Shown one piece after another: positions 22,966 to 29,489 of a stretch of 43,023 nt of DNA. Origin of the DNA: Holdemanella biformis DSM 3989 (GTDB taxonomy: Bacteria; Bacillota_I; Bacilli_A; Erysipelotrichales; Erysipelotrichaceae). Numbering within the stretch: position 1 is the stretch's first letter; the number at the start of each line of letters is the position of its first letter. The translations under genes were made by a program, and so were the position numbers. Under the pieces are notes generated by a model, which was not told where the DNA came from, made no database searches, and saw nothing but the letters and a program-made list of their open reading frames with translations. Location of the stretch: contig NZ_DS996841.1 of NCBI RefSeq assembly GCF_000156655.1, forward strand, positions 142,409-185,431. The letters run 5' to 3'.

Positions 22966-23838
22966 TTAAAAATCAAATCCCATTACTTTTTTAATGTGAT
23001 CTACAGGCATTTCTTTTCCAGTCCACAATTCAAATGCTGCAGCACCTTGGTAAAGCATCATTGGGAAACCATTTAATGTTTTACATCCAACACTTTCTGC
23101 CATTTCCAACAATTTAGTTTTTGCTGGGGCATACACTGTATCTGTTACAATTAAGTCTTCACGTAAGAATGAAGTGTCTGGCAACCAAGTTTGTCCTTCT
23201 AAAGGTTTCATACCCATACCAGTCGCATTTGTTAAGATATAGCTATCTTCGATTTCTTTACGCAATGCTTCTTTATCATCTAAATCAAACAATTTAGCTT
23301 TACAATTTGTGTTTTTGTTGATTTTTTCAACAGTTTCTTCAGCATTTGTCCAGAATTTATCTTTACGGTTGAAGATTGAAAGTTCGGCAACACCATCTAA
23401 TGCAGCTTGGATTTCAATAGCTGTAGCAGCTCCACCAGCTCCGGCAATTGTCATTTTCTTACCGATTGCGTCGATTCCTGCATCTTTTAAACCTTTCATG
23501 TATCCAACACCATCTGTGATTGTTCCTGTTAATACACCATTGTCATTTACAACTGTATTTACAGCTCCACACATTTCAGCTGCTGGAGTCAATTTGTCTA
23601 AGTATTTTCCGATCACAGTCTTGTTAGGCATAGATACGTTCCATCCACGAACCTTCATAGCTCTAAATCCTTTTACTGTATCTTCCAAAGTGTCATTATC
23701 TACTTCAAATGCAAGGTAAGCATAGTCTAAACCTAATTTAGCGAATGCTTCATTGTGCATCTTTGGTGATGATGAATGGCGAATAGGGTATGCGATCAAC
23801 CCAATTAATTCTGTGTGTCCTGTAATTCTTTCACTCAT
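22966..23838 (-). CDS. ydiB: Quinate/shikimate dehydrogenase, YdiB type
   Basis: Oxidises shikimate or quinate to the 3-dehydro acid, probably with NAD. The 290-residue protein matches the YdiB subfamily: ELIGLIAYPIRHSSSP, YLAFEVDNDT, VSMPNK with catalytic Lys73, LTPAAEMCGAVNTVVND, a catalytic Asp109, and the terminal LWTGKEMPVDHIKKVMGF. In classic AroE and YdiB the second site reads NTDG; here it is ITDG (Ile107), an odd change beside the substrate pocket. The strong AGGAGG site and position between the flavoenzyme and the MFS gene support a catabolic role. Biosynthesis is covered by the separate AroE-AroK fusion at 28206. Confidence 0.9.
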   Translation of the reverse strand: MSERITGHTELIGLIAYPIRHSSSPKMHNEAFAKLGLDYAYLAFEVDNDTLEDTVKGFRAMKVRGWNVSMPNKTVIGKYLDKLTPAAEMCGAVNTVVNDNGVLTGTITDGVGYMKGLKDAGIDAIGKKMTIAGAGGAATAIEIQAALDGVAELSIFNRKDKFWTNAEETVEKINKNTNCKAKLFDLDDKEALRKEIEDSYILTNATGMGMKPLEGQTWLPDTSFLREDLIVTDTVYAPAKTKLLEMAESVGCKTLNGFPMMLYQGAAAFELWTGKEMPVDHIKKVMGFDF

Positions 23839-25996: not shown

Positions 25997-26884
25997 ATGA
26001 ATCTTAACCATTTATATTACTTTAAAGTACTTGCAGAAACCGAACACTATACGCAAGCCGCCAATATGTTAAATATTACCCAGCCTTCCCTATCGCATGC
26101 CATCTCGCAATTAGAAGATGAATTAAATTGTTATTTATTTGAAAAACAAGGAAGAAACATTCGTTTAACAAGATATGGAAAAATCTTCTATGAATATGTC
26201 ACAAAGGGATTAAGCGAAATCGAACTGGGTCAAAAAAAGATTGATGCCATCACTTCCCCTAATCAAGGATGGATCAACCTAGCATTTATTTATACACTTG
26301 GATATCGTTATGTTCCACATTTGATTCAGCATTTCCATTTTGATAAAAATAATAGTAAAATTAAATTCACTTTAAAACAAGGAAGCACAAGTGCACTACT
26401 TGATGGATTAGAAGAAGAAAAGTATGATTTAGTTCTTTGTTCCTATCAAGAAAATCGAAACAATATCAATTTTGTTCCTATCACAACGGAAGAATTGGTC
26501 GTTGTAGTATCAAAATTAAATCCATTGGCATTAAAAAATGAAATTGATTTGCAGGAACTACAGAATGAATATTTTATTTATTATAGTAAGCAAAGTGGAT
26601 TAAGACCTTTGATTGATGATTTATTTCATTCCAACAATATTGAACCCAACATCATGTTTGAAGTTGAAGAAGACAGTGCCATCCTTGGTCTAGTTGATAT
26701 TAACTATGGTGTAGCTGTTGTACCAAACATTCCCATGATTGATCATTTCCATTTAAAGAAGTTAAAAATCAAGAACCCACAAAAGAAACGTATTATTTAT
26801 ATGGCTACAGTAAAAAATAGATATGCACCTCCGGCTGTACATTCATTTTGTAACTTCATTATTCAAAACTCAAATATAGATTAA
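25997..26884 (+). CDS. LysR-family transcriptional regulator
   Basis: 295-residue regulator with the LysR N-terminal HTH (HYTQAANMLNITQPSLSHAISQLEDEL, LFEKQGRNIRLTRYGK) and a periplasmic-binding-like effector domain. It is divergent from the enoate-reductase/ydiB/aroD operon across a 137-nt gap containing palindromes, so it almost certainly controls that operon. The inducer may be shikimate or quinate, by analogy with the Listeria QuiR system as I recall it. TATAAT at 25974 and an AGGAGG site precede the ATG. Confidence 0.92.
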   Translation: MNLNHLYYFKVLAETEHYTQAANMLNITQPSLSHAISQLEDELNCYLFEKQGRNIRLTRYGKIFYEYVTKGLSEIELGQKKIDAITSPNQGWINLAFIYTLGYRYVPHLIQHFHFDKNNSKIKFTLKQGSTSALLDGLEEEKYDLVLCSYQENRNNINFVPITTEELVVVVSKLNPLALKNEIDLQELQNEYFIYYSKQSGLRPLIDDLFHSNNIEPNIMFEVEEDSAILGLVDINYGVAVVPNIPMIDHFHLKKLKIKNPQKKRIIYMATVKNRYAPPAVHSFCNFIIQNSNID

Positions 26885-27607: not shown

Positions 27608-27937
27608 TTATTGAATCAAGTACTTTTCAAACGCCTTTTCGACATCCAAATTAAAATTACGAAATAATAATATTAACCAAACAAGAATAGCTACAATTGC
27701 GACATATGCACTTAAATAATAAGATAGAACAGATCCTATACATAGAATCACAAAATAGATGAAACATTGATTACGCATATCTCTAGAAATATATGCCTTG
27801 TCATACTTTTCTGGATGGTTCAATGTATTAAAGCCAGAAACATAATTTGCACCTTTTTCTTTTAATAGCGCAAATATAATGCTTAATATTAAAAACAATA
27901 AAGCTAGTATTGTGCATATACAAAATCCAATATTCAT
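27608..27937 (-). CDS. DUF3784-like membrane protein
   Basis: 109 residues from the chosen ATG at 27937, with an N-terminal helix (FCICTILALLFLILSIIFALL), the motif KEKGANYVSGFNTLNHPEKYDKA that marks DUF3784-type proteins, and two further helices. Function is unknown. A GTGGTGA site precedes this ATG and a TATAAT lies 25 nt upstream, while the longer frame to 28042 has neither. It is divergent from the aroE-aroK leader. Confidence 0.7.
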   Translation of the reverse strand: MNIGFCICTILALLFLILSIIFALLKEKGANYVSGFNTLNHPEKYDKAYISRDMRNQCFIYFVILCIGSVLSYYLSAYVAIVAILVWLILLFRNFNLDVEKAFEKYLIQ

Positions 27938-28007
27938 AATAATCACCACTCTTATTATACTCTTTTGAAACAGCTTTCCTCTTTTTACATTTATTTTCAT
28001 TTTAGGG

Positions 28008-28036
28008 TTGCCAGTTTCAATGAAATGGTGTATCCT
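28008..28036 (+). promoter_or_regulatory. Promoter of the aroE-aroK leader
   Basis: TTGCCA (28008-28013), 17 bp, TATCCT (28031-28036). With normal spacing the transcript would begin at 28043, the A of the leader peptide's ATG. Confidence 0.5.
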
Positions 28037-28042
28037 ATGCAT

Positions 28043-28081
28043 ATGAACAATTCAAGACAATATTACTACTACTTTAAATAG
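28043..28081 (+). CDS. Tyr/Phe-rich leader peptide of aroE-aroK
   Basis: A 12-codon frame encodes MNNSRQYYYYFK and then TAG. Four consecutive Tyr codons and one Phe codon, followed directly by a strong hairpin and an intrinsic terminator ahead of a shikimate-pathway gene, fit a leader peptide whose translation senses charged tRNA-Tyr/Phe. In-frame ATGs at 28025 and 28037 could give longer forms. No clear ribosome site is present for the ATG at 28043, which would be the first base of the mRNA if the proposed promoter is right. Confidence 0.7.
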   Translation: MNNSRQYYYYFK

Positions 28082-28165
28082 CCCTGAAAAAAGCCATATG
28101 TATACGATGGTTATTTTTAAGTTTCAGGGCGTTACACAAAAGCATTTCTAATTCGAAATGCTTTT
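28081..28165 (+). promoter_or_regulatory. Attenuator: long hairpin plus intrinsic terminator upstream of aroE-aroK
   Basis: Two RNA structures follow the leader peptide. The first is a long hairpin with a perfect 9-bp base GCCCTGAAA (28081-28089) / TTTCAGGGC (28122-28130) and an inner AGCCAT / ATGGTT stem. The second is a terminator, AAAAGCATTTC / GAAATGCTTTT (28138-28165), with a T-run. Both are transcribed only towards aroE-aroK, since the upstream gene points away. The stop codon of the leader overlaps the base of the first hairpin. I could not find a convincing antiterminator, so the exact switching mechanism is open. Confidence 0.75.
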
Positions 28166-28205
28166 TTTCACATTTAAAGAGCTGTTCTAGAAAAGAGGAA
28201 ATGAT

Positions 28206-29489
28206 ATGAAATACGGATTGATAGGTGAACACTTGGGGCATAGTTTCTCCAAACAAATTCAGACAAGAATTGCAGAGATTGAGAATGTAAAAGATTATGA
28301 CTACCAATTAGTAGAATTAAATAAAGAAGAATTCAAAGAATTTATGGAAAAGAAAGATTTCAAAGGAATCAATGTGACTATTCCATATAAAAAAGATGTC
28401 ATTCCTTACTTAGATGAAATGGATGGGAGTGCTAAAGCCATTGGTGCTGTCAATACAATCATCAATGTAGATGGCAAATTAAAAGGATTCAACACAGACT
28501 TTGGTGGATTCTTATATATGGTTAAAGCACACAACGTACATATGGAAGGCAAAAAAGTCTTGATTATTGGTAACGGTGGTGCTTGTGCAGCAGTTAAAGC
28601 CGTTTGTGAACATGAAAAAGCCAAAGACATTGTGATTGTTTCAAGAAGTGCAGATCGTGGTGCCATTGGATATGATGAAATGTATACATCCCATTTAGAT
28701 GCAGATATTGTCGTCAATACAAGTCCTGTTGGAATGTTTCCAAATATTGCGAATGCACCAATTGATGTAAGCTGGTTCCATAAATTAGAATGTGTATTAG
28801 ACGTTGTATACAATCCCATTCTTACACGTTTATGTTTTGAAGCTCAAGAAGCCGATATCAAGCGTGTGATTGGTTTGGAGATGTTGATTGCGCAAGCCAA
28901 ATATACATTTGAAATCTTTGAAAATATGTCTTTTGACGACTCTATCATTGATGAAATCAAAAAGGAGATGTTGAAAGATCGTTGTAACATCGTATTGATT
29001 GGTATGCCAAGTGCTGGTAAAACAACAATTGGTAAAATGCTTGAAGAAAAGCTTGGAAAAGAATTTTTCGACTTAGACGATATGATTATTGCCAAAGCCG
29101 GCAAAAGCATTCCAGAAATCTTCCAAGAATCTGGAGAAGCAGGATTTAGAGCGATTGAAACAGAAGTTGCGATTGAAGCGAGTAAGATGAATAATAAAAT
29201 CATTGCAACTGGTGGTGGTGCCATTAAACATAAAGTCAATATGGACTTCTTACGTTTAAATGGAATCACGATCTTCATTGATCGCGATATCGATAAGTTA
29301 ATTAGTTCCGATCCAAATAGACCTTTATCAAGTTCTAAACAAGCCCTTCAACAAATGCATAAAGAAAGATACCCATTGTACCAAAAATACGCAGCTTATG
29401 TAGCCGTCAACAATGCGAATATTGAAGAAACGGTAGACGATATTGTGAATGCCTATCACAGCATTTTAATTGATGCCGTTGCAGACTAG
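28206..29489 (+). CDS. aroE-aroK: Fused shikimate dehydrogenase - shikimate kinase
   Basis: 427-residue bifunctional enzyme for two consecutive shikimate-pathway steps. Residues 1-255 are AroE: GHSFSK, VTIPYKK with the catalytic Lys, GAVNTIIN and FNTDFGGF with the catalytic Asp, and an IGNGGACAAV Rossmann loop. Residues from about 258 are AroK: Walker A GMPSAGKTT, FDLDDMI for shikimate binding, ATGGGAI, and the Arg of PNRPL in the lid. It keeps the NTD motif that the YdiB-type paralogue has lost. The ribosome site is AGAGGAA. Regulated by the leader at 28043-28165, it is likely the biosynthetic copy. Confidence 0.95.
   Translation: MKYGLIGEHLGHSFSKQIQTRIAEIENVKDYDYQLVELNKEEFKEFMEKKDFKGINVTIPYKKDVIPYLDEMDGSAKAIGAVNTIINVDGKLKGFNTDFGGFLYMVKAHNVHMEGKKVLIIGNGGACAAVKAVCEHEKAKDIVIVSRSADRGAIGYDEMYTSHLDADIVVNTSPVGMFPNIANAPIDVSWFHKLECVLDVVYNPILTRLCFEAQEADIKRVIGLEMLIAQAKYTFEIFENMSFDDSIIDEIKKEMLKDRCNIVLIGMPSAGKTTIGKMLEEKLGKEFFDLDDMIIAKAGKSIPEIFQESGEAGFRAIETEVAIEASKMNNKIIATGGGAIKHKVNMDFLRLNGITIFIDRDIDKLISSDPNRPLSSSKQALQQMHKERYPLYQKYAAYVAVNNANIEETVDDIVNAYHSILIDAVAD

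Follow-up and report, generated by a model that had tools for sequence, protein, structure and literature searches.

A probable Phe/Tyr-sensing leader-peptide attenuator upstream of aroE-aroK in Holdemanella and its relatives

Holdemanella is a gut bacterium whose fused aroE-aroK gene is preceded by a short region that we take, from comparative sequence analysis and with a probability of roughly 85%, to be a transcription attenuator in which translation of a leader peptide senses Phe and Tyr. The same succession of leader, hairpin and terminator is found in dozens of related species, which makes it very probable that the region is a switch responding to Phe/Tyr shortage. With charged tRNA-Phe and tRNA-Tyr plentiful, the translating ribosome would reach the UAG stop codon and depart, and the terminator would end most transcripts; with charged tRNA-Phe or tRNA-Tyr scarce, the ribosome would stall at the Phe/Tyr codons, letting more polymerases proceed into aroEK.

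The leader of aroE-aroK and its distribution

The window (the whole 43,023-nucleotide stretch of DNA analyzed here) comes from a Holdemanella genome of 2.5 Mb, with a protein identity of 96% to H. porci. The elements of the leader lie on the plus strand. A putative promoter (28008-28036) comprises a -35 hexamer, TTGCCA (28008-28013), a 17-nt spacer and a -10 hexamer, TATCCT (28031-28036); both hexamers are identical in H. porci. The leader ORF that follows, MNNSRQYYYYFK-UAG (28043-28081), has 12 codons, reading Met (ATG, 28043-28045), Asn, Asn, Ser, Arg, Gln, four consecutive Tyr, Phe and Lys before the TAG at 28079-28081. The G of this stop codon is also the first base of hairpin A (28081-28130), in which an outer stem, formed by GCCCUGAAA (28081-28089) and UUUCAGGGC (28122-28130), encloses an inner hairpin (GCCAU/AUGGU, 28093-28097/28107-28111) and the U-rich stretch UUAUUUUU. 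Next comes an intrinsic terminator (28138-28168) with an 11-bp stem (AAAAGCAUUUC, 28138-28148; GAAAUGCUUUU, 28155-28165), a 6-nt loop and a run of seven T (28162-28168). The gene predicted to be regulated, the aroE-aroK fusion (shikimate dehydrogenase and shikimate kinase), occupies 28206-29489; the Pfam domains Shikimate_dh_N and shikimate kinase are present in its product. The leader RNA, about 125 nt to the terminator, folds better than shuffled sequences (z = -3.8).

The original prediction had described this 12-codon frame, a hairpin at its stop, a terminator and aroE-aroK, and sequence, folding and Pfam place all four as it said. The terminator at 28138-28168 was not listed by a simple terminator scan of the window because the rule used there requires T's 3' of the stem, and here they lie inside it. 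The closest plus-strand gene 5' of the leader, of LysR type, ends at 26884 and is separated from the leader by ORFs on the opposite strand; the terminator therefore does not serve that gene, as the original prediction had argued. One of the minus-strand ORFs (27608-28042) has its first ATG opposite the leader promoter, although it probably starts closer to 27937. Elsewhere in the window, a minus-strand gene at 22966-23838 encodes a second AroE-like protein (31% identity to the fusion over 141 residues); it adjoins an enoate-reductase-like gene and a transporter, and perhaps functions in quinate/shikimate use.

Relatives of aroEK are present in 143 of the 273 genomes of the family. Upstream of them are short frames that end in Phe/Tyr runs, with a hairpin and a terminator directly after; examples are MHTTTYETFYFYFR, MHLATSSVFYFYFQ and MKILSNSYFYFFN, and a typical end is FYFYFR-stop. 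Conservation of the leader frame was the test on which the original prediction had been prepared to fall, and the claim survived: the frame with its aromatic run, hairpin A and the terminator are kept in H. porci and across the family, and the hairpins, the terminator stem included, covary. The run is YYYYF in the window and YYFYF in H. porci, a difference of two base changes that turn one Tyr codon into a Phe codon.

Judged from their sequences, the leaders fall into two architectures, of which the window's is class 1. Covariance models were built from 16 class-1 sequences (R1) and 19 class-2 sequences (R2). A search of 316 genomes of the order with R1 at E<=0.01 recovered class-1 leaders in 32, all of this family; R1 matches at E>0.01 that had no convincing Phe/Tyr leader (L171 and L189-L191, for example) were left uncounted. 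For class 2, 49 of the family's 273 genomes gave a match at E<=1e-7, so that the two classes together cover about 80 of the 273, a single genome being on both lists. Beyond the family, in a sample of genomes of the class, there was no R1 match, and the sole R2 match (L213) was rejected as a false positive, there being no leader ORF at the site.

Nearly all related leaders end in a Phe/Tyr run. In a set of 81 leaders the share of Phe and Tyr at codons -2 to -6 is 76-96%, a level inflated by the selection of the set for Phe/Tyr content, as well as for hairpins and a terminator; the set includes some near-identical species, and counts from it ignore the tree. Most of the covariance-model matches, which were obtained without a Phe/Tyr filter, have the same run.

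Two architectures and the evidence for switching

In class 1, the outer stem starts at the stop codon or just after it and contains an inner hairpin of the CCA..UGG type and a U run; some 4-9 nt further on stands the terminator. The inner hairpin and U run are probably a polymerase pause site. Across the 16 sequences the three helices jointly have 94.4% of cells paired, compared to 27-48% when slid, and the outer stem reaches 100%. Two-sided changes occur in nine pairs, and the covariation score is 0.348, against 0.182 +/- 0.019 in shuffled alignments. In some class-1 leaders (L037, L041 and L045 among them) the codons show complementarity to a large part of the terminator.

Class 2 is organized differently. 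A downstream segment, GGCAUUAUCUGAA, has three possible partners: the last codons together with the stop (UUUAGAUAG), the inner hairpin's 3' half, and the terminator loop (CGGAUAAUGCC). For the helix between segment and terminator, 84.3% of cells are paired (33-55% when slid) and the covariation score is 0.253, against 0.166 +/- 0.017; for the alternative helix between segment and inner hairpin the corresponding values are 77.8% and 0.211.

One way to detect a functional pairing is to compare the pairing energy of each species' own two segments to that of pairs swapped between species. This comparison ignores the tree, and relatives improve the swapped pairs: it is conservative for class 2 and might mask a weak class-1 signal. 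The class-2 segment pairs with its own terminator at -18.9 kcal/mol and with those of other species at -15.0 kcal/mol, and none of 20000 permutations was as good. This supports coevolution of the terminator with the segment 5' of it, which an antiterminator would be expected to show.

A second measure was how far the 5' side of the terminator is occupied while the 3' arm has yet to emerge, with ribosome positions blocked. For the E. coli trp attenuator, a control with a hand-entered sequence, occupancy is 0.06 with no ribosome, 0.35-0.68 with the ribosome at the Trp codons and 0.06 with the ribosome at the stop. Occupancy of the class-2 terminator loop is 0.9 with the ribosome in the aromatic run and 0.7 with the ribosome at the stop, the direction that the attenuation model predicts. 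According to this model a stalled ribosome would cover the last codons of a class-2 leader, the inner hairpin would form, and the downstream segment (of the GGCAUUAUCUG type) would be freed to pair with the terminator loop (of the CGGAUAAUGCC type); were the ribosome on the stop codon, or absent, the segment would pair elsewhere and the terminator would form.

The same analyses of class 1 gave a different picture. The own-versus-swapped comparison recovers both the outer stem (z about -15) and the terminator arms (z about -14), but detected no antiterminator between hairpin A and the terminator: the 3' arm of hairpin A pairs with the terminator 5' arm (which apparently resembles GCCCUGAA) no better in its own species than when swapped (z +0.6 to +2), and this candidate was rejected. 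Nor did the comparison give any signal for pairing with the ribosome-binding region of aroE. Pairing of the leader ORF with the terminator 3' arm gave a weak signal (z about -3, with dozens of tests made); we rejected it as a switch, since its logic is also contrary to classical attenuation. Occupancy of the class-1 terminator 5' arm is about 0.2 with a stalled ribosome and about 0.47 with the ribosome at the stop, opposite to the expected trend. Because class 1 has no detectable partner and a reversed occupancy trend, we offer a detailed switch model for class 2 only. The original prediction of ribosome-mediated attenuation is thus supported in part, by the conserved leader, hairpin and terminator; the antiterminator that such a mechanism would employ is supported in class 2 and undetected in the window's own class 1.

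It is conceivable, though we consider it unlikely, that class 1 attenuates without any RNA antiterminator and that hairpin A itself lowers termination. A ribosome waiting on the UAG at the foot of hairpin A would keep the hairpin open, and stalling further upstream would let the hairpin close; once closed, it would act on RNA polymerase or hinder folding of the terminator from about 4-9 nt upstream. Such a mechanism would fit class 1 because hairpin A and the terminator show no pairing, UAG is preferred as stop codon (see below) and the spacer is short.

Less probable again is that Phe and Tyr are sensed but that termination is not the output, a ribosome stalled near the 5' end altering the decay or translation of aroEK RNA while the terminator sets a basal level. 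The undetectable class-1 antiterminator, and the apparent independence of hairpin A and the terminator, speak for this account; yet class 2, in the same family, has an upstream segment that coevolves with the terminator, and a search for conserved pairing with the region 3' of the terminator found none. A terminator also stands close behind every retained leader, but the filter demanded one.

Start and stop signals of the leaders

The -10 hexamer of the window leader ends 6 nt before the ATG at 28043 (a second in-frame ATG lies at 28037). A -10-like hexamer ending exactly 6 nt 5' of the ATG precedes 26 of the 81 leaders and 27 of 576 ordinary ORF starts; in 25 of those 26 leaders, and in 11 of the 576 ordinary starts, there is also a -35-like hexamer 16-18 nt further up. 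The comparison is biased slightly toward the leaders, because in those with several in-frame ATGs any ATG could count, and the 576 starts are uncurated, which makes the true background rate uncertain. Shine-Dalgarno-like sequences are found in 37 of the 81 leaders, promoter spacing of the leaderless type in 26 and neither in 19, with both signals present in one leader only. Among 46 leaders lacking a Shine-Dalgarno sequence, a spacing of 6 occurs in 21 cases, compared to 2.3 in shuffles. From this exact 6-nt spacing we infer that in roughly one leader in three, that of the window among them, transcription probably starts at the start codon itself, which would make these leaders leaderless, a feature that the original prediction had not noted; in the window, transcription would begin at or next to the A of the leader ATG.

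The stop codon is also biased. UAG ends 51 of the 81 leaders (63%), compared to 6 of the window's 38 ORFs and 11% of ORFs in related loci (11-16% of ordinary genes). Pairing of the G in class 1 may contribute in part to this preference; class-1 aroB leaders keep UAG although its G is unpaired. The bias, together with the fact that hairpin A begins at the stop codon, could be taken as a sign that the leader encodes an arrest peptide, which would sense free Tyr or Phe with the ribosome at UAG in the manner of TnaC. We regard this as very improbable: arrest peptides need specific residues, and here the peptide is unconserved outside the aromatic run, within which Phe and Tyr are freely interchanged, as codon sensing predicts. 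Moreover, induction by an excess of the product would have the wrong sign for a biosynthetic gene.

Even less credible is an unregulated 5' UTR, whose terminator merely limits expression or stops stray transcription. Equilibrium folding, in which the terminator is about 95% formed at every ribosome position, could be read in this way; however, we rejected this probability as a test of switching, since for the E. coli trp attenuator (with the same hand-entered sequence) it is likewise 0.96 in all states. An unregulated UTR also leaves unexplained why the aromatic run is conserved before several aro genes.

Regulon, T-boxes and known attenuators

Leaders of the two classes stand before aroE-aroK, aroB-aroC or aroF. 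The Holdemanella genome contains a second class-1 leader, MNIQSTYFYFYFR, with an SD-like GGTGAT, before aroF, which encodes DAHP synthase (L156, G000:C38:106462-106566, minus strand; E=1.8e-10), and H. porci has the same class-1 leader before aroF. In other genera leaders precede aroB, followed in one case (L158) by aroC and aroA; gene names beyond aroEK and aroF are from reading translations, Pfam having covered fragments only. In class 2, many leaders are found 2-3 kb away from aroEK, on its 5' side. The Tyr and Phe codons had been proposed to match the end products of the pathway, and the YYYYF of the window and the Phe/Tyr-rich leaders before aroEK, aroB-aroC and aroF throughout the family agree with this. 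As separate observations, class-2-like leaders MNDLVNTALHQVNYFYFIFC (L172) and MVNNHNITNISFFFFFR (L175) precede TrpX-like substrate-binding proteins of a transporter, and a weak class-2 match, with frame MPKEVKWQFYFLGL containing Trp, Phe and Tyr codons, precedes an amino-acid ABC transporter operon in Holdemanella (L169, G000:C34:76769-76887, minus strand) and in H. porci (L170).

T-boxes are frequent in the Holdemanella genome (21 matches, 17 over the cut-off), but the chance that the leader is itself a T-box or a metabolite riboswitch is negligible, the RNA of only ~125 nt having no T-box sequence and the window neither a match to the T-box model RF00230 nor an Rfam family at the gathering score. 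No Rfam family reached that score in 20 related loci either, a permissive search (E<=10) of 27900-28210 gave no family beyond implausible matches, and RF01743 (Leu/phe leader) matched neither the window nor the related loci. The original prediction had seen no T-box here, and was right. A genome-wide T-box search found none before aroEK or aroF of the Holdemanella genome; T-boxes stand instead before tyrS (L192, G000:C38:102959-103154), some 3.3 kb away from the aroF leader, and before pheS (L210, G000:C39:6499-6704; score just under the cut-off). The same genome thus employs both systems, T-boxes for tyrS and pheS and leaders for aro genes. The contrast that the original prediction drew with Firmicutes, as mostly using T-boxes or TRAP, was overstated, as leader-peptide attenuators have been reported or predicted there (PMC2965389, PMC5794164, PMC9413887).

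The mechanism is accordingly known in kind, from the trp, his and pheA attenuators, the His leaders of Erysipelotrichales and uORFC-13-1, and the Phe/Tyr leaders of this family are a new variant. For pheA, trp and his, attenuation by the translating ribosome is classical (PMC1183508). With the E. coli and Salmonella attenuators the family shares a short ORF with end-product codons, hairpins at the stop codon, a terminator and a biosynthetic gene downstream. It differs in that its leaders match no Rfam family, their control codons run nearly up to the stop, many appear leaderless, and one segment has three possible partners in class 2 while class 1 has no detectable antiterminator. The nearest aromatic case, uORFC-13-1, comprises 24 representatives, from Acholeplasma and environmental sequences only and before aroF only (PMC8632094); it too has a uORF with one or more Phe codons before a shikimate-pathway gene, an extra stem and a terminator.

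Within the same order, His leader-peptide attenuators have been predicted beside T-boxes in his operons (Erysipelotrichales, Peptostreptococcaceae and the B. cereus group; PMC9413887); they differ in using histidine codons. Leader peptides are also predicted for hisS paralogues in bacilli (PMC2965389). The Leu-rich ilv-leu attenuator of Staphylococcus aureus, which has genetic support (PMC5794164), and the Lactococcus lactis Leu/phe leader RF01743 (PMC2864571) are further cases of leader-peptide attenuation in Firmicutes, with other amino acids and genes. The putative leaderless transcripts with an attenuating leader ORF have a parallel in the polycysteine short ORFs of mycobacteria (Canestrari et al. 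2020, as cited in PMC9031893); these employ cysteine and belong to Actinobacteria, and their leaderless state, as cited there, is experimental, whereas here it is suggested by promoter spacing alone. A search of the open literature, to which our survey was confined, turned up no description of Phe/Tyr leaders from Erysipelotrichales.

The family-wide set, absent from Rfam 15, allows leaderless leaders to be compared to those with a Shine-Dalgarno sequence, and architectures with a visible antiterminator to those without; if class 1 truly lacks one, the mechanism of attenuation there is a directly testable question. More generally, it appears that in a lineage of Firmicutes Phe/Tyr leader peptides probably control much of the shikimate pathway, while the corresponding tRNA synthetases retain T-boxes. 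Two sensors of tRNA charging, for the same amino acids, would then operate together in one cell.
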